Source of the DNA: Chloroflexota bacterium
GTDB lineage: Bacteria > Chloroflexota > Limnocylindria > Limnocylindrales > CSP1-4
Reading direction: 5' to 3'
Length of the DNA stretch: 8,414 nt
Assembly: GCA_025355255.1 (NCBI GenBank)
Contig: JANYAA010000292.1
Location: forward strand, 1 to 8,414
In this document: piece after piece, positions 1,506 to 8,414 of the stretch
How positions within the stretch are numbered: the first letter of the stretch is position 1
Layout: every line of letters begins with the position of its first letter
Position numbers and translations under genes: made by a program
Notes under the pieces: model-generated
Database searches by the model: none
Told to the model about the DNA's origin: nothing
The model's input: the letters and a program-made list of their open reading frames with translations, nothing else

Positions 1506-2990
1506 ATGCTGCCACCGATGAACGCCGACGACCTCCTCGCGGCTCTGCGCGAGATCCTGGATCTAAGCCAGATCAACACAGACCTAGACGCGCTGTATGA
1601 CGCTGCCGCCGACCGCTACAAGAAGTACGCGAAGGCCAGGAAGGTCCTCGACGTCCCTTCACCCATCGCGATCGTCTACCCGGCATCGGTTGAAGAAGTC
1701 AGCCGACTTCTGGTCATGTGCAATGAGCACCGCGTCAACGTCATCCCGAGGGCCGGCAAGACCGCAACCGAGGGTGGCCTTGAGAACTGGAAGGATCTCA
1801 GCGTCGTCGTTGACTCGCAGAACCTCGACCGGATCCTGAAGATCGACCCCTACAACATGCAGGCGACGGTCCAGGCCGGCGTGCGCCTCCAGGACCTTGA
1901 GGACAAGCTGCGGGCGATGGGACTCACCACGGGCCATTCGCCGCAGTCAAAGCCGGTGGCGAAGTTTGGGGGCCTCGTCGCCACGCGCAGCATCGGCCAG
2001 TTCTCCACGCTCTATGGCGGCATCGAGGACATGGTCGTGGGGCTGGAGTGCGTCTTTCCGGACGGCCACGTGTCGCGGATCAAGAACGTTCCGAGGCGTG
2101 CAGGCGGTCCGGATATCCGTCACATCGCAATCGGCAACGAGGGCGCCCTCTGCTTCATCACCGAAGTGACCGTCAAGCTCTTCCGCTACTTCGGGGAGAA
2201 CCACAGGTTCTACGGGTACCTGGTGAACGATGTTGACACCGGGATCCGCGTCCTCCGAGAGGTGATGGTCAACGGCTATCGGCCGTCCGTTGCCCGCGTG
2301 TACTCGGAGGAAGATGCAAGGCAGCACTTCTACCACTTCTACAAGGACAAGTGCGTGCTCCTGTTCATGGCAGAGGGCAACAAGCACATCGTCGAGGCGA
2401 CCTGCCAAGGCATCGAGGAGGCTGTCCAGACGCATGCGGCCGGGATCATCGAGCGCGTTGACAGCGAGCTGATCGAGGGCTGGTTCAACCACCTCAACTG
2501 GTCCCAGAAGGACATCGACGACGAGCTTGCGGGCATGGTCGAGAACGACAGCCACGCAGGATTCACCACGGAGATCTCAGCTGATTGGGAGACGATCCCT
2601 GAGATCTACCGCAACGTGATGCGCCGGATCAAGAGCGAGTTCGCGCGCGCCGACGACCTGACCATGCTTGGGGGCCACTCCTCGCACAGCTACATCAACG
2701 GCACAAACATGTACTTCGTCTACAACTACACGATCCGCTGCGCACCCGAGGACGAGTTGCGGATCTACCACCACCCGCTGCAGACCATCATCGTGGAGGA
2801 GACGCTCAGGCTGGGCGGCTCCATGTGCCATCACCACGGGATTGGCAAGTACCGCAGCGAGTGGACCGTTGCTGAACACGGATCCGCCTACTACATGCTT
2901 GAGAAGCTGAAGGCGTCGTTTGATCCCAACGGGATCATGAACTTCGGCACGATCTTCCCCCAAGAAGAGGGCATGCGGTACGTGAGGTAG
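1506..2990 (+). CDS. ygcU: YgcU-like FAD-linked oxidase (alkyl-DHAP synthase/GlcD superfamily)
   Basis: A 494-residue flavoenzyme of the PCMH-type FAD-binding family. The FAD-binding domain covers roughly residues 50-235. It has the loop PRAGKTATEGG (81-91), a second flavin segment from GHSPQSKP (143-150) to about 177, and GNEGALCFITEVTVK (210-224). The cap/C-terminal domain carries TMLGGHSSHSY (386-396), a triple-histidine motif HHHG (442-445) and DPNGIMNFGT (473-482). The motifs and length match my memory of E. coli YgcU very closely. The HHH motif is also a hallmark of alkylglycerone-phosphate synthase. No membrane segment is seen. The next gene is an ETF, so the likely role is oxidation of a hydroxylated substrate with electrons passed to ETF; the substrate is unknown. 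The start may instead be the in-frame ATG at 1518 (490 residues), which fits the family's N-terminus slightly better; neither start has a clear Shine-Dalgarno. Confidence 0.93.
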   Translation: MLPPMNADDLLAALREILDLSQINTDLDALYDAAADRYKKYAKARKVLDVPSPIAIVYPASVEEVSRLLVMCNEHRVNVIPRAGKTATEGGLENWKDLSVVVDSQNLDRILKIDPYNMQATVQAGVRLQDLEDKLRAMGLTTGHSPQSKPVAKFGGLVATRSIGQFSTLYGGIEDMVVGLECVFPDGHVSRIKNVPRRAGGPDIRHIAIGNEGALCFITEVTVKLFRYFGENHRFYGYLVNDVDTGIRVLREVMVNGYRPSVARVYSEEDARQHFYHFYKDKCVLLFMAEGNKHIVEATCQGIEEAVQTHAAGIIERVDSELIEGWFNHLNWSQKDIDDELAGMVENDSHAGFTTEISADWETIPEIYRNVMRRIKSEFARADDLTMLGGHSSHSYINGTNMYFVYNYTIRCAPEDELRIYHHPLQTIIVEETLRLGGSMCHHHGIGKYRSEWTVAEHGSAYYMLEKLKASFDPNGIMNFGTIFPQEEGMRYVR

Positions 2991-3036
2991 ATGGGGCCCG
3001 GGTCGCGAGCGAGTTGGCAGCGGAGATGCTCCGGCA

Positions 3037-4266
3037 GTGAGAGTCGCATGCCTTGTGGACGGCGGCGGGGGCCAGGATCGGGCGGGGGAGCGACGGTCCT
3101 TGGCGCCAGCGGATGCCACAGCCTGTGCCTTCGCGTTGACGATGAAGGCGCGCTGGCCTGACACATATGTCGAGGTGGTTGCACTGGGGCCGCTGGTTGC
3201 GATTCCCGCGCTGGAGGACCTCCTGCGACTCGGGGCCGACAAGGCGACGCTGCTCAGCGATCCGGCGTTCGCCGGCAGCGACTCCCTTGTGCGAACCAGG
3301 ATCCTGGCCGAATACCTGCGTGGCGTGTCCTTCGACTGCATCCTCGCGGGGGCCCAGACCGCCGACGGGGCCGACGCGGAGGTGCCTCCGCACCTTGCCG
3401 ACCTCCTCGCGCTTCCCCAGGTATCGAACATCATCCGTGTCGATGAGGCATCGCTGGTCGAGGGCTGGCCGCTCGTCGATGTGGACGAGGGCAGGCTGCA
3501 GGCCACCTACCGGATCCCACTGCCAGCCGTGTTGAGCTTGAAGCACCATCACGCCCAGGTGTTGCCCCACGTGAGCCTCCGCGACTCGAGAGCCGACGTC
3601 GGCGACCGCCTCCACGTGATCGACAACGACCAGTTAGGCCTTCCGGCACACGAGGTTGGCACCCAGGGCTCGCTGACCCAGGTAGTGGAGGTGCTCGATC
3701 CACCCGTCCGGCAACGGGAGCCACGGTTCGTTCGCTGCAATGCTGAGGGGATCGAGCAAGTCCACGCATTCCTGCAGAGCCGTGGTCTGATCACGCACAC
3801 CACGGCGTTCTCCCCAAGCCACGTGCAAGGGGAGCAGGTGGTCCTCGTTGGGCGTCGTCCGAAGGACCCTCCGGGCGACATCAGGGATGCGGAGATCCTG
3901 ATTTCCGGCGGGGGCGGCGTGGCCGGGTCCTTCGATGAACTGCAGAAGCTTGCCGCGGTGATGGGCGGTCGCGTGACCGCGAGCAGGCGTGCCGTGGACC
4001 TCGGGGTTGCGGCCCGAGCGATCCAGGTGGGGCAGTCTGGCAGGACGGTGAGCCCCAGGCTCTACATCGCACTCGGGATCGACGGCGCGGGCCAGCACAT
4101 CGAGGGGCTTCGGAACATCGAGTCCATCATCTCGGTCAACACGAACCGGCATGCTCCGATCTGCAGCATCTCGGACATCGTCGTCGAGGGCCACGCGAGG
4201 GAGTTCATCGAACGGTTATGCCGCCGAATCAACGAGGGGACGACGGCCGCACTTGAGCCGCACTAG
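3037..4266 (+). CDS. Single-chain electron transfer flavoprotein: EtfB domain fused to EtfA FAD-binding domain
   Basis: A 409-residue protein starting at GTG 3037, with GGAG 11 nt upstream. It begins 46 bp after the oxidase. Residues 1 to about 250 are EtfB-like: APADATACAFAL (23-34), VVALGP and LRLGADKATLLSD (47-75), AGSDSL (79-84), AGAQTADGADAEVPP (104-118), IPLPAVLSLK (160-169) and the EtfB tail VLDPPVRQREPRFVRC (219-234). After a linker of about 30 residues, residues 284-409 are the EtfA C-terminal FAD-binding domain: EILISGGGG (286-294), ASRRAVD (315-321), VGQSGRTVSPRLYIALGI (331-348) and GAGQH (350-354). The N-terminal EtfA domain, normally about 150-190 residues, is absent and the frame is intact. 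The protein should accept electrons from the upstream flavin oxidase and hand them to a quinone reductase. A canonical Asp of the EtfA motif INKDPxAP appears as Asn370. It corresponds in place to E. coli YgcR plus the C-terminal half of YgcQ. Confidence 0.9.
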   Translation: MRVACLVDGGGGQDRAGERRSLAPADATACAFALTMKARWPDTYVEVVALGPLVAIPALEDLLRLGADKATLLSDPAFAGSDSLVRTRILAEYLRGVSFDCILAGAQTADGADAEVPPHLADLLALPQVSNIIRVDEASLVEGWPLVDVDEGRLQATYRIPLPAVLSLKHHHAQVLPHVSLRDSRADVGDRLHVIDNDQLGLPAHEVGTQGSLTQVVEVLDPPVRQREPRFVRCNAEGIEQVHAFLQSRGLITHTTAFSPSHVQGEQVVLVGRRPKDPPGDIRDAEILISGGGGVAGSFDELQKLAAVMGGRVTASRRAVDLGVAARAIQVGQSGRTVSPRLYIALGIDGAGQHIEGLRNIESIISVNTNRHAPICSISDIVVEGHAREFIERLCRRINEGTTAALEPH

Positions 4267-4285
4267 AAGGAATGGACGAGCCTTG
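4265..4285 (+). promoter_or_regulatory. Shine-Dalgarno and TTG start of the YgcW-like SDR
   Basis: AGAAGGA (4265-4271) overlaps the ETF stop codon TAG (4264-4266) and lies 11 nt before the TTG at 4283. An ATG at 4272 is out of frame for the SDR and abuts the Shine-Dalgarno too closely to be its start. The arrangement suggests translational coupling to the ETF. The start choice rests on alignment with the SDR family N-terminus. Confidence 0.55.
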
Positions 4286-5062
4286 GACATCAGCGACTTC
4301 GGGATCAACCGCTTCTCCGTCAAGGGGAAGAACGCGATCGTGACCGGCGGCAACAGCGGGCTTGGCCAAGCGTTCTCACTTGCCCTGGCCAAGGGCGGGG
4401 CGAACGTCATGGCGGCGAGCGTGTTCGACGACGGTGGCGAGACGAGGGCGCTCGTCGACGCGTGCGGCGTTGCCTACAGGCAGATCCATTCGGATCTCAC
4501 GCAGCCCGGCGAATGCCTCCGCGTTGTGGACGACTGCGTCGCGACCTGGGGAAGCATCGACATCCTGGTCAACTGTGCCGGGATCTCCATCAACGTCGAG
4601 GATGTCACCCGCTTCACGCGCGAACAGTGGGACAAGATGGTGGCGGTGAACCTGACCGCCGCCTTTGAGATGATCCACGAGTCCTGCAAGCACATGATCA
4701 GGCAGCAGCGCGGCAAGATCATCAACATCGCCTCGCTGTACGCGTTCCTTGGAGGCCAGTGGTCGCCGGCGTATGCCGCCACCAAGCACGGGATCGTGGG
4801 CCTGACCAAGGCCATGTGCGACGAGCTGGCGCAGTTCAACATCCAGGTCAATGCCATCGCGCCAGGCTACTTCGCGACCAAGCTCACCGCGAAGACGCAG
4901 GCTGACCCTGATCGCAATGGCGCCATCCTCGCCCACACGCCTGCAGGCCGATGGGGGTCTCTGGCCGATCTGATGGGGGCGTGCCTGTTCCTCGCGAGCC
5001 CCGCCTCGGACTACGTCAACGGGCACACGCTCACCGTTGACGGTGGCTATCTGGTCCGCTAG
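4283..5062 (+). CDS. ygcW: YgcW-like short-chain dehydrogenase/reductase (KduD-related)
   Basis: A 259-residue classical SDR, read from TTG 4283, which is 16 bp after the ETF stop and preceded by AAGGA at 4267-4271. It shows the Rossmann motif TGGNSGLG (21-28), NCAG in place of the usual NNAG (97-100), Asn123, and the catalytic Ser151, Tyr164 and Lys168 with the normal 13-residue Ser-to-Tyr spacing. The C-terminal region (PAGRWGSLADLMG, 220-232; ASDYVNGHTLTVDGGYLVR, 241-259) resembles 2-dehydro-3-deoxy-D-gluconate 5-dehydrogenase (KduD), and GGQWSPAYAATKHG (157-170) matches E. coli YgcW from memory. It should carry out NAD(P)-dependent alcohol/ketone conversion on a sugar-derived substrate in the cytoplasm. 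A longer reading from ATG 4151 would overlap the ETF by 116 bp and add 44 residues that do not look like SDR sequence, so TTG is preferred. Confidence 0.92.
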   Translation: MDISDFGINRFSVKGKNAIVTGGNSGLGQAFSLALAKGGANVMAASVFDDGGETRALVDACGVAYRQIHSDLTQPGECLRVVDDCVATWGSIDILVNCAGISINVEDVTRFTREQWDKMVAVNLTAAFEMIHESCKHMIRQQRGKIINIASLYAFLGGQWSPAYAATKHGIVGLTKAMCDELAQFNIQVNAIAPGYFATKLTAKTQADPDRNGAILAHTPAGRWGSLADLMGACLFLASPASDYVNGHTLTVDGGYLVR

Positions 5063-5080: not shown

Positions 5081-6544
5081 ATGTCGGATATGTACTTCAT
5101 CGGCGTCGACGGCGGGTCGCAGAGCACGAAGGTCTCGATCTTCAACCAGTCTGGCACTGTGATCTGCAGCGCGAGCGAACCGCTCAAGCCCATGGTGTCC
5201 CGGCAGCCGGGCTATATGGAGCATCCAGACGACGACTTGTGGGACAGCCTCAAGGTCGTGCTCAAGCGGGTGATGGGCTCGTTTCAGGGCGACCCCGGCG
5301 CGATCCTCGGGCTGGGTCTGTGCTCGATCCGCTGCTGTCGGGTCTTCATGCGGGCAGACGGAACGCTTGCGGCGCCCGTCATGAGCTGGATGGACATCCG
5401 GGCGTACGAGACGTTCGAGGACCGTCCCGACATCAGCTATACGTGCTCAACCACCGGCTACCTCACCCATCGCCTGACGGGCGAGTTCAGGGACGCTGCC
5501 GCCAACGCGTATCCGGGTCAGTTTCCCGTCGATGTGGACACCTGGGCCTGGACAGCCGATGCGCAGCGGCTTGGGGAGTTCGGGATCCCCAGGGTCAAGC
5601 TGCTCGAGATCGACCTGCCCGGAGTGATCCTGGGTCGTGTGAGCCCGAGTGCTGCGGCGCAGACGGGTCTTCCAGTCGGTCTTCCGGTGGTCGCCACCGC
5701 CAATGACAAGGCAGTGGAGGCCCTCGGTGCCGGGTTGACTGACCTGAACGTCGGCCTCGTGTCGCTCGGCACATACAGTGCGTCAATGGTCTACGGCGCC
5801 ACAAACCGAACCGATGCGACGCACTTCTTCACGAACATGGCGTGCGTCCCCCACCACTACCTGTATGAAGCCAGCGGCATTCGCAAAGGCATGGGGCATA
5901 TCTCGTGGTTCAAGTCCATCATCGGCGAGGAGTACGCGGCGAAGGCGAGCGCGGACGGCAGATCCGTCGAGGAGGCGCTTGGCCAAGAGGCGGCAGCCGT
6001 GCCCGCCGGGTCGGATGGCCTGCTGACGATCCCGGACTGGCTGGCGCCGGCCAGCCAACAGCACCGCAAGGGGGTCATCATCGGGTTTGACGACCGCCAC
6101 ACCAGGGGCCATATCTACCGGTCGCTGCTTGAGGCAATCGCGATGACCCTCATCAACTGCTACGACGACATGATCCGCGAGCTCGGGATCCACCCGGCCA
6201 GCATCCTCGTGTCGGGCGGCGGGGCGAGCAGCGACCTGCTCATGCAGATCCTGGCCGACGTCTCCGGCGTCAAGACGACCCGGAACGAGGTCACCGGCGC
6301 GGCCGCCTTGGGATCGGCCATGTGCGCCGCCGTGGCGGCCGGCGTCTACCAGGACGCCCACGAGGCGGCTGGCCACATGGTGAAGCGCCGTGATGAGTTC
6401 TTGCCAAACCCGCAGAGCCAGCAGGTCTACTCGAGGATCAACACCGAGGCGTATCGCCGGCTGGGATCGCTGCTGGAGCCCGCTCTGAAGGCCGTCCGCC
6501 GTGCGGTTGGCGAAGACTCCGAGGACGCTGCCCGGGCGGTGTGA
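5081..6544 (+). CDS. ygcE: YgcE-like FGGY-family carbohydrate kinase
   Basis: A 487-residue ATP-dependent sugar kinase with both FGGY (actin-fold) domains. The phosphate-1 loop is VDGGSQSTK (9-17). Subfamily signatures are MEHPDDDLW (46-54), GLCSIRCCR (79-87) and SWMDIRA (102-108). YLTHRLTGEF (127-136) follows. The catalytic base should be Asp209 in TANDKAVEALGAG (206-218). The phosphate-2 motif is SLGTYSA (228-234), and the adenosine-site motifs are SGGGASS (378-384) and GAAALGSA (406-413). The segment between Asp105 and the TGEF motif is about 35 residues shorter than in xylulokinase-type members, a trait I also recall in E. coli YgcE. The gene starts 18 bp after the SDR and ends the operon. 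It probably phosphorylates the sugar or ketose product of the oxidase and SDR steps; the substrate is not known. Confidence 0.92.
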   Translation: MSDMYFIGVDGGSQSTKVSIFNQSGTVICSASEPLKPMVSRQPGYMEHPDDDLWDSLKVVLKRVMGSFQGDPGAILGLGLCSIRCCRVFMRADGTLAAPVMSWMDIRAYETFEDRPDISYTCSTTGYLTHRLTGEFRDAAANAYPGQFPVDVDTWAWTADAQRLGEFGIPRVKLLEIDLPGVILGRVSPSAAAQTGLPVGLPVVATANDKAVEALGAGLTDLNVGLVSLGTYSASMVYGATNRTDATHFFTNMACVPHHYLYEASGIRKGMGHISWFKSIIGEEYAAKASADGRSVEEALGQEAAAVPAGSDGLLTIPDWLAPASQQHRKGVIIGFDDRHTRGHIYRSLLEAIAMTLINCYDDMIRELGIHPASILVSGGGASSDLLMQILADVSGVKTTRNEVTGAAALGSAMCAAVAAGVYQDAHEAAGHMVKRRDEFLPNPQSQQVYSRINTEAYRRLGSLLEPALKAVRRAVGEDSEDAARAV

Positions 6545-6598
6545 CGCGCCCGGCGACGTGGGCGACCGCCTGACATCGTGGGCTGGCCTCGCGTCAGG
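6545..6598. terminator. Convergent junction with a weak inverted repeat
   Basis: The kinase and the GH57 gene converge with 49 bp between their stop codons. An inverted repeat CCTGAC (6569-6574) / GTCAGG (6593-6598) has six paired bases around an 18-nt loop, and its right arm overlaps the GH57 stop codon. There is no T-tract on either strand, so an intrinsic terminator is only a weak possibility. Confidence 0.2.
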
Positions 6599-8018
6599 TC
6601 GGGGGCGGCTGGCCGGCCTCAGCCAGCGCGCGCCGGTACAGCGCGGCACCGTCCAGCCCGGTTGCGGGCGACCGGAGGATCGACAGATCGCGGACGAGCC
6701 GCCGCTCGAGCGACGTCCCGGCCAGCGCGTCCACCAGGCGTGCTGCTCTGGCCGCGGCCCGAAGGTTGGTCGCCGTCTCCGGTCTGGCCGGGTCCTCCCA
6801 GAACCAGCCATCGGAGGCGAACATCGCCAGACGCCAGCGCTGCGCCTCCAGAAGGGTCGCCAGCCGCCCGCGGTCTTCGGCGTCCGCCTTGCCGCCGGTG
6901 CACGCGTCGGCGAATGCCTCAGCGTCGGTAAGGCCAAGCACAACGTCCACGTAGGCGTCACGGGCAGCCCACGGGTCGTCCAGACCGGGGATCTGCGCGC
7001 CGACCATCTCGGTAACGACGTCAACCGCCCCGGCGAGGCGGTCCAGAGCTCCCCGCAGCGGCGCCTTCCAGCGCGCATCGTGGGCATCTGGGCACTCGCC
7101 GCCCCAGCGCGCAACACCGTGGTGGCAGCTCCAGGACGTCCGCTCCCGGATCCGGATCTCCGGGTGCGGGTCGTCGCTTGGGTCGGCGAGAAAGGCGCCC
7201 AGCGTCACGACGTCAAACCCTCGGTCCGGGCCGTTGGCGTCCGGCGCGACGAGCGCGCGCAGGAACAGGTCGCGGAACTGCTGGTGGTGCCCGTACAGCT
7301 CGCCGTCGCTGGCGATGACCACCGTCGGCGCGCGGCCGTCTGCGAGCGGCGGCGCAAGGCGGGGGAGGAGCTGCTCGCGAATGAACCGGTCAGCGTTGGC
7401 CGTGAGGTCCGGCACAAACGAGACCGCGCCCGAGAGGTCGCCGTCGTAGAACGCGACATCGAGATGGCGGCCGCCGCCGGTGGCAACGCGATAGGCGCGT
7501 CGGTCAAGATGGTCCACGTCGGCCTGCCAGGGCGCAAGCACCGTGCCGGTGATGCCCTCCTCCACGGCGACTCGGAGCGTGGCGAGGTCAACCGCGGTCT
7601 CAGGGAACCAGACCTGCGTTGCCGGCCGGCCAAAGCGGACCTCGAAGCTGCGCAGGCCCCAGCGGATCTCCGTGCGCCGGTCGTGGAGCGGCGCGTACGG
7701 CAGGATCGAGTGGTGGTAGGTCTGTGCGATCCCAGGCCCGTGGTGGCGGCCACCGCCTGCCCGGTCAGCGGCAGCGAAGTCCTGGAGCACGTCGGGCGCC
7801 GCATGCGCGAGGTACGACCCGAGGGTTGGCCCGAGATCCCACGACGCATGGGCGAGCGCGCCCGAAGCGGCGTTTGGCCGGTAGCAGTCAGCCGTGACGC
7901 GGGCGGCCCAGTCACGCGCCGGCGCGGCCGTGGGGTCGGGCGGCGTTTCCCCGGTGAACGGGTTGACTCGTGACGGCTGGTAGAAGTGGGCGTGCACGAC
8001 GAGACGCGGGCGTCTCAT
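6594..8018 (-). CDS. GH57 family glycoside hydrolase, short DUF3536-type
   Basis: A 474-residue GH57 enzyme read from ATG 8016-8018. It opens with the GH57 N-terminal strand HAHFYQPSRVNPFTG (9-23). GIAQTYHHSILP (96-107) is the second conserved region. VWFPE (136-140) holds the predicted nucleophile Glu140, and SDGELYGHH (237-245) holds the predicted acid/base Asp238. SWSCHHGVARW (295-305) follows. Residues 398-409 (AMFASDGWFWED) match the start of the region found in DUF3536-containing GH57 proteins. Those proteins are usually about 800 residues, so this one stops soon after that motif. The family acts on alpha-1,4-glucans, often as amylase or transferase in the cytoplasm; no signal peptide is seen. 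The upstream alpha-amylase/4-alpha-glucanotransferase gene on the same strand ends 34 bp before, indicating an operon. An upstream reading to ATG 8136-8138 would add 40 non-family residues overlapping that gene. Catalytic roles are assigned by family analogy. Confidence 0.9.
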   Translation of the reverse strand: MRRPRLVVHAHFYQPSRVNPFTGETPPDPTAAPARDWAARVTADCYRPNAASGALAHASWDLGPTLGSYLAHAAPDVLQDFAAADRAGGGRHHGPGIAQTYHHSILPYAPLHDRRTEIRWGLRSFEVRFGRPATQVWFPETAVDLATLRVAVEEGITGTVLAPWQADVDHLDRRAYRVATGGGRHLDVAFYDGDLSGAVSFVPDLTANADRFIREQLLPRLAPPLADGRAPTVVIASDGELYGHHQQFRDLFLRALVAPDANGPDRGFDVVTLGAFLADPSDDPHPEIRIRERTSWSCHHGVARWGGECPDAHDARWKAPLRGALDRLAGAVDVVTEMVGAQIPGLDDPWAARDAYVDVVLGLTDAEAFADACTGGKADAEDRGRLATLLEAQRWRLAMFASDGWFWEDPARPETATNLRAAARAARLVDALAGTSLERRLVRDLSILRSPATGLDGAALYRRALAEAGQPPPT

Positions 8019-8052
8019 CGCGGGCGCAGGTCCCGTTGGGCGCCGGACCGTG

Positions 8053-8414
8053 TCACGCGCCGGCCGCCGTGTGGTCCCGGCTGACGGCGGCGTCCTGGCG
8101 CACGGCGAAGCGGCGCGTCTCGCCGGGCTGCAGCACAAACGGCCAGGTGAACGTCAGGGCGCTGCCCTGGTACACGCGCTCGAAGCCGCCCTCAGAGTTG
8201 GACACGGTCTCGATGGGGCTCCACCACACGTCAGCCGTCGGCGAAGCGTGCGCCACGACTGCGAGGCCCACCCAGTCGTTGCCGAAGCTGATGACGCTGA
8301 CCCCATTCGCCTCACCGCTGCCGTCATGGCGGGATCGGGCTCCGGCCACGTCATACCAGGCCTGCGGGTTGCCGCCGCCGCCAAGCATGTGCAGCCCCCA
8401 CTCAAGTCCCAGCC
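8053..8414 (-). CDS. Alpha-amylase/4-alpha-glucanotransferase, C-terminal 119 residues (runs off right edge)
   Basis: The frame enters from the right edge and ends at TGA 8053-8055. It reads LGLEWGLHMLGGGGNPQAWY at the edge, followed later by DVWWSPIETVSNSEGGFE, VYQGSALTFTWPF and LQPGETRRF. The combination of an E-W-x-L strand, a PIETVSxSExGFE segment and a YQGS strand is characteristic of the beta-sandwich C-terminal domain (DUF1926-type) of GH57 alpha-amylases and 4-alpha-glucanotransferases. The catalytic GH57 barrel should lie beyond the window. The gene precedes the short GH57 gene by 34 bp on the same strand, so the two are probably co-transcribed and work together on maltodextrin or glycogen chains. 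Which reaction dominates cannot be judged from this part. Confidence 0.85.
   Translation of the reverse strand, partial: LGLEWGLHMLGGGGNPQAWYDVAGARSRHDGSGEANGVSVISFGNDWVGLAVVAHASPTADVWWSPIETVSNSEGGFERVYQGSALTFTWPFVLQPGETRRFAVRQDAAVSRDHTAAGA

Follow-up and report, generated by a model that had tools for sequence, protein, structure and literature searches.

The window analyzed here, an 8,414-nucleotide stretch of DNA that makes up contig JANYAA010000292.1 of the Chloroflexota bacterium assembly GCA_025355255.1, carries a gene in which EtfB, one subunit of an electron-transferring flavoprotein (ETF), is fused straight to the flavin adenine dinucleotide (FAD) domain of EtfA. ETFs usually have three domains: alpha-I, alpha-II, which holds the FAD, and beta. 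The fused frame joins beta to a conserved alpha-II domain at the last EtfB codon, and alpha-I is absent. We tentatively favor the explanation that this chain is a simple FAD shuttle for a YgcU-type oxidase that arose by in-frame deletion and no longer bifurcates electrons. The rival explanation that the gene is a decaying remnant is of almost equal weight.

Beta joined to alpha-II at the last EtfB codon

The original prediction, made from the letters of the DNA, held that an intact 409-residue frame runs from EtfB directly into the EtfA FAD domain, in the order beta then alpha-II and with alpha-I missing. Pfam, tblastn mapping of the junction and a structural model all confirmed this. On the 409-residue product, Pfam found a single ETF match (PF01012; residues 15-138, 69 bits) followed by ETF_alpha (PF00766; residues 281-358, 82 bits), and no second copy of PF01012. 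The predicted structure consists of beta, a disordered linker and alpha-II, with a mean predicted local distance difference test (pLDDT) score of 82.5; this model was built on a deeper alignment and replaced one from a thin alignment that had a mean pLDDT of 57. GC content at third codon positions is similar in the three parts (beta 0.80, linker 0.79, alpha-II 0.85). The FAD-binding motifs of alpha-II are preserved in the fused chain, which is predicted from its sequence to bind FAD and to take up electrons from a dehydrogenase. The coordinates of all features are collected in Table 1.

We mapped the junction by tblastn of the 5 nearest EtfB proteins and 6 of the nearest EtfA proteins onto the window. 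Of the 5 EtfB relatives, four stop at position 3792 and one at 3789. Of the 6 EtfA relatives, 5 begin at 3793, three of them at EtfA residue 164; the sixth, P0007, extends to 3709 across the tail of beta. The junction falls in the linker that connects alpha-I to alpha-II in EtfA, such that the fused gene lacks the stop of EtfB, the start of EtfA and the entire alpha-I domain and retains the final EtfB residue and the complete alpha-II domain. No alpha-I domain was found in the fused chain by Pfam, by tblastn, in the model or in a survey of 240 proteins (see below), and the alpha-I segments of the six EtfA relatives gave no tblastn match to the window with E < 0.04. A hidden alpha-I domain within residues 170-280 was considered and ruled out by alignment and by the predicted structure, in which there is no room for it. 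Family searches of the source genome, whose assembly is 83% complete, found no separate alpha-I gene elsewhere.

The simplest origin of this arrangement is likely a single in-frame deletion of ~0.5 kb, as judged by comparison with intact relatives, which would have joined the end of etfB to the linker of etfA. If deletions are modeled as uniformly random, 33% of the resulting joins keep the frame, and 0.16% of these in-frame joins are equally clean at both ends, the borders counted as "clean" having been chosen after the case was seen. Alternatively, the etfB stop and the alpha-I coding part could have been lost through an erroneous join in the fragmented assembly of a metagenome. The source assembly is indeed in 505 contigs, is incomplete, and places the gene on a contig of 8,414 bases (C448). 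However, the frame is intact on either side of the junction, and searches of the source assembly with PF01012 and PF00766 revealed no intact copy of the locus's etfB or etfA. A 374-residue protein, P0002, encoded on a 2,996-base contig, has the identical junction and differs from the window protein at two residues, which argues against misassembly, though the independence of P0002 from the window is uncertain. We therefore regard an assembly artifact as improbable.

Table 1. Features of the window (positions in the 8,414-nucleotide stretch)
Feature	Position	Strand	Details
YgcU-like FAD oxidoreductase	1506..2990	+	FAD_binding_4 and FAD-oxidase_C; 57% identity to E. coli YgcU
Fused two-domain ETF gene	3037..4266	+	open frame, GTG start, 409 codons, EtfB then alpha-II
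EtfB (beta) part	3037..3792	+	residues 1-252; terminates at final EtfB residue
Site of 12-residue in-frame loss, loop after first beta strand	3057..3058	+	relative to separate EtfB relatives
Bifurcating FAD (b-FAD)-type motif region, D110-P118	3364..3390	+	DGADAEVPP (A. woodii DGDTAQVGP); from alignment with A. woodii
EtfB recognition-loop region, residues 173-181	3553..3579	+	AQVLPHVSL; from alignment to A. woodii, counted by hand
Fusion junction	3792..3793	+	final codon of EtfB, then EtfA residue 164 (tblastn of separate relatives)
Retained EtfA inter-domain linker	3793..3876	+	residues 253-280; mostly low predicted confidence
EtfA alpha-II FAD domain	3877..4263	+	residues 281-409
FAD-domain motifs ASRRAVD, QVGQSGRTVSPRLY, VNTNRHAPI	3979..4161	+	conserved as in nearest separate relatives
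YgcW-like short-chain dehydrogenase/reductase (SDR)	about 4283..5062	+	likely TTG start; 56% identity to E. coli YgcW
YgcE-like FGGY kinase	5081..6544	+	44% identity to E. coli YgcE

Relatives and rarity of the architecture

A search of a database of 5.8 billion proteins gave 456 hits, of which the best 120 were considered. Among these, the best matches apart from P0002 are unfused: separate EtfB proteins (264 residues; 258 for the best) with identity of up to 79%, and separate EtfA proteins up to 83% identical across the matched part. P0006 and P0008 lie on contigs of equal size (25416), as do P0012 and P0017 (70434), which suggests that the EtfB and EtfA proteins of each pair are encoded by neighboring genes. 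For a profile search, the best 120 of 7,177 hits, drawn from 7,999 candidates sharing most words, were considered. The window protein, the 120 proteins from the first search and 119 more from the profile search made up the survey of 240 proteins. These comprise 114 with EtfB alone, 110 EtfA proteins, 14 with beta, alpha-I and alpha-II, and 2 with the beta-alpha-II architecture, namely the window protein and the near-identical P0002. The group of 14 consists of 13 full fusions (557-645 residues) and the chimera P0132 (435 residues). P0132, the one other candidate from the profile search that has both families at a similar size, was considered as a second beta-alpha-II case and rejected: half of beta is joined to half of alpha-I, and the alpha-I segment "RPAFGG" is kept. 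Two EtfB proteins, P0125 (403 residues) and P0135 (343 residues), have an internal stretch repeated; they and P0132 are either true rearrangements or assembly faults.

No further match at E ≤ 1e-28 was obtained in a draw of 400 genomes from the phylum, with 4 candidates scored per genome. In phylum draws of 400, the EtfA relative P0009 (E ≤ 1e-40) recovered just the source genome, and YgcU (E ≤ 1e-120) just the source genome and a second genome, G007. A contig-level genome scan using the fused protein yielded no confirmed relative. At the 80 loci examined, alpha-II is preceded by at least 163 in-frame residues in every case, 5 of which reach the locus edge. Ten frames of 632-786 codons with beta and alpha-II matches are present in 10 of 61 genomes of the same genus or family; from their length and the positions of their matches, the only criteria applied, they are probably full-length fused ETFs. 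In the open-license PMC literature, no fused ETF lacking domain I was found by title or abstract start.

A possible electron shuttle in a ygc-type operon

Homologs of YgcU, YgcW and YgcE occur together in the window, as in a ygc-type operon, and the complete pair of ETF subunits that is intact in Enterococcus malodoratus (L038) and E. coli is lacking. Because both of these keep separate ETF genes at or near the operon, an intact ETF was likely ancestral in it. In this genus it is likely undergoing reduction or loss. The YgcU protein was found at E ≤ 1e-120 in 2 of 107 genomes of the family (the source genome and G007), and the kinase at E ≤ 1e-60 in 3 of the 12 genomes of the genus (these two and G006). 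In G006, a separate EtfA with alpha-I is encoded upstream of the SDR and the kinase; the contig starts within etfA, so EtfB lies outside view. In G007 (contig C296, locus L033), with DNA identity of 85-87% on both sides, YgcU is followed directly by the SDR with no ETF genes between, and window positions 3025-4256 are without counterpart in the contig. A scar between YgcU and SDR in G007 keeps the apparent last etfA codons before the SDR. The ratios of nonsynonymous to synonymous substitution rates (dN/dS) between the window and G007 are low (oxidase 0.16, SDR 0.16, kinase 0.19), indicating that the operon is otherwise maintained.

The structure paper on Ldh-EtfAB (PMC9232219) divides ETF into a base, in which EtfA domain I is combined with domain III of EtfB, and a mobile shuttle, formed by alpha-II and the EtfB arm, and describes docking of the Acetobacterium woodii EtfB recognition loop (185-193) on the dehydrogenase. 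By this division, the parts retained in the fused chain would be those that face the oxidase, namely alpha-II, including its FAD site, and the recognition loop and arm of EtfB. The lost part would belong to the base, where the second nucleotide or flavin is bound and where the shuttle docks in the bifurcating state. Since the oxidase-facing parts remain and the base part is lost, we tentatively take uptake of electrons from YgcU without bifurcation as the likeliest reading. The chain would dock on YgcU via the kept recognition loop, and alpha-II would carry one FAD, helped by the C-terminal arm of EtfB. Electrons from YgcU would then be passed to a simple acceptor without bifurcation; one possible acceptor is ETF-quinone oxidoreductase, for which the source genome has a match on contig C443.

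PMC9232219 also reports that A. woodii EtfA Arg205 touches N5 of the bifurcating flavin and that its replacement abolishes both bifurcation and confurcation. The equivalent residue, Arg126 (position counted by hand), is invariant in the alpha-I domain of 11 of 11 separate EtfA relatives, and the fused chain has lost this arginine along with alpha-I. Without it and without a shuttle-docking surface, the bifurcation-connected state would be lost. In beta, Gly111 corresponds to Gly123 of EtfB (A. fermentans numbering), which PMC12630350 gives as a marker of bifurcating ETFs. PMC9232219 gives as criteria for bifurcating EtfB the b-FAD motif DGDTAQVGP and the nicotinamide adenine dinucleotide (NAD) motif RxFxG. 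In the fused chain, the first reads DGADAEVPP, with 4 of its 9 positions altered; the second reads PAFAG, with Pro for Arg. These changes are not specific to the fusion: the b-FAD motif is altered in all 5 of the nearest intact EtfB proteins, and the NAD arginine is missing from 3 of them. Similarly, Asn370, which the original prediction took as a hint of an altered flavin environment, cannot be tied to the fusion because intact relatives share the motif: it is present in 8 of 8 aligned sequences, and its counterpart, Asn281, occurs in 11 of 11 separate EtfA proteins.

Conserved positions in alpha-II are largely kept, with 2 of 61 conserved columns broken compared with a mean of 1.39 (standard deviation 1.32) over 111 sequences including the fused protein. 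In the EtfB part, 2 of 37 are broken (10 sequences), one of them due to the in-frame loss of 12 residues from the first loop. This loop is intact in the 4 aligned relatives that have a full N-terminus (P0004, P0005, P0006 and P0012) and is also present in P0003, which begins inside the region, and in four more distant EtfB proteins; the stretch lies outside the coverage of P0002. Among 30 comparisons, no relative-rate test gave p < 0.16.

Several observations weigh against a role as a shuttle. Without alpha-I, beta has an exposed face that would otherwise be covered, and the 12-residue loss may damage beta, residues 11-19 being of low confidence in the model. G007 retains the operon without ETF genes at the locus, and the operon's ETF thus seems dispensable in the genus. 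The other PF01012 matches in the source genome form two neighboring-frame pairs, on C113 and C138, each with an ETF_alpha domain, and these two further etfBA sets could serve YgcU. The dN/dS of alpha-II between the window and G006 (0.286) is higher than that of the SDR (0.135) and the kinase (0.198). Finally, the ancestor may never have bifurcated, given that even intact relatives have degraded b-FAD and NAD motifs, and the preserved residues may merely reflect a recent deletion.

It is possible, and almost as plausible as the shuttle, that the operon's ETF genes were unneeded in this lineage and that the deletion left an open frame by chance, with a useless product. The G007 locus, where YgcU, SDR and kinase remain without any ETF genes, the second lesion in EtfB, the two other etfBA sets and the dN/dS of alpha-II relative to the neighboring genes are all in keeping with such decay, as is an architecture otherwise found only in P0002 among the proteins examined. 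By contrast, both lesions are in frame, the larger one sits on domain borders, and conserved columns are retained about as well as in intact relatives. The same G007 locus bears on the proposal that the YgcU-like oxidase is a dedicated partner: the oxidase is adjacent, as predicted, but a dedicated and needed role is weakened by the absence of ETF genes beside the sister oxidase. A working homodimer, in which beta substitutes for alpha-I in a symmetric (beta-alpha-II)2 and more of the usual function is retained, is very improbable, as the beta flavin would still lack its contact with the arginine.

Under the shuttle explanation, the fused form would be a stage of reduction in which just the oxidase-facing half is left, and the operon's ETF seems to be on its way out in the genus because the sister locus in G007 has none. 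We consider it doubtful that the product is a working two-domain, single-chain ETF without the bifurcating half that serves only its own oxidase, whether it is monomeric or forms a (beta-alpha-II)2 homodimer with beta in the place of alpha-I. If it is, a natural chain of beta and shuttle would probe whether alpha-I serves bifurcation only or also plain electron transfer. A non-working product would still document how, inside one genus, an otherwise conserved operon loses its ETF step by step.

Among the neighboring genes, the kinase (5081-6544) matches the FGGY_N profile in two pieces, as does E. coli YgcE (470 residues aligned), and a shorter N-terminal part may be characteristic of YgcE-like kinases as a subfamily. 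Carbohydrate-active genes flank the operon on the minus strand at 1-1323 and 6594-8138 (alpha-amylase family; GH57 with DUF3536) and are also present in G007. A suspected truncation of the GH57/DUF3536 neighbor was rejected: it has no sign of a lesion, and the copy in G006, of the same genus, covers residues 43-513 of 514.

Comparison with known systems

The A. woodii Ldh-EtfAB complex (LctBCD; PDB 7qh2) has homologous EtfB and alpha-II domains, and the region of its recognition loop is present in the window. The window oxidase is distantly related to A. woodii LctD (7qh2_C, E 2.3e-16) and closer to alkyl-dihydroxyacetonephosphate synthase (4bby_A, E 7.3e-45). Unlike the A. woodii complex, the window's ETF is a single chain without alpha-I and without the EtfA ferredoxin domain, has altered b-FAD and NAD motifs, and has a shortened first EtfB loop. 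According to PMC12630350, the canonical ETF of Fusobacterium nucleatum is a simple carrier for an FAD-linked hydroxyacid dehydrogenase (Ldh); it is a three-domain heterodimer with phenylalanine at the Gly123 position, and the authors infer adenosine monophosphate (AMP) in beta. The window protein, predicted to be a similar carrier, keeps glycine at this position.

The 13 full-length fused ETFs of our survey (beta-alpha-I-alpha-II, 557-645 residues; for example P0122) resemble the window protein in having beta then alpha in one chain. All as classified here retain alpha-I, whereas the window protein is without it and is not a member of this group. E. coli, with ygcQ-ygcR and ygcU-ygcW-ygcE, shares the YgcU, YgcW and YgcE homologs with ETF genes close by. 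It differs in having two separate ETF subunits, YgcQ (286 residues) and YgcR (259 residues), and YgcR is only ~27% identical to the EtfB part of the window protein. The YgcU-EtfB-EtfA-SDR-kinase locus of E. malodoratus differs in encoding EtfB separately from an EtfA that includes alpha-I; it shares the gene order of the window, and its YgcU is 71% identical.
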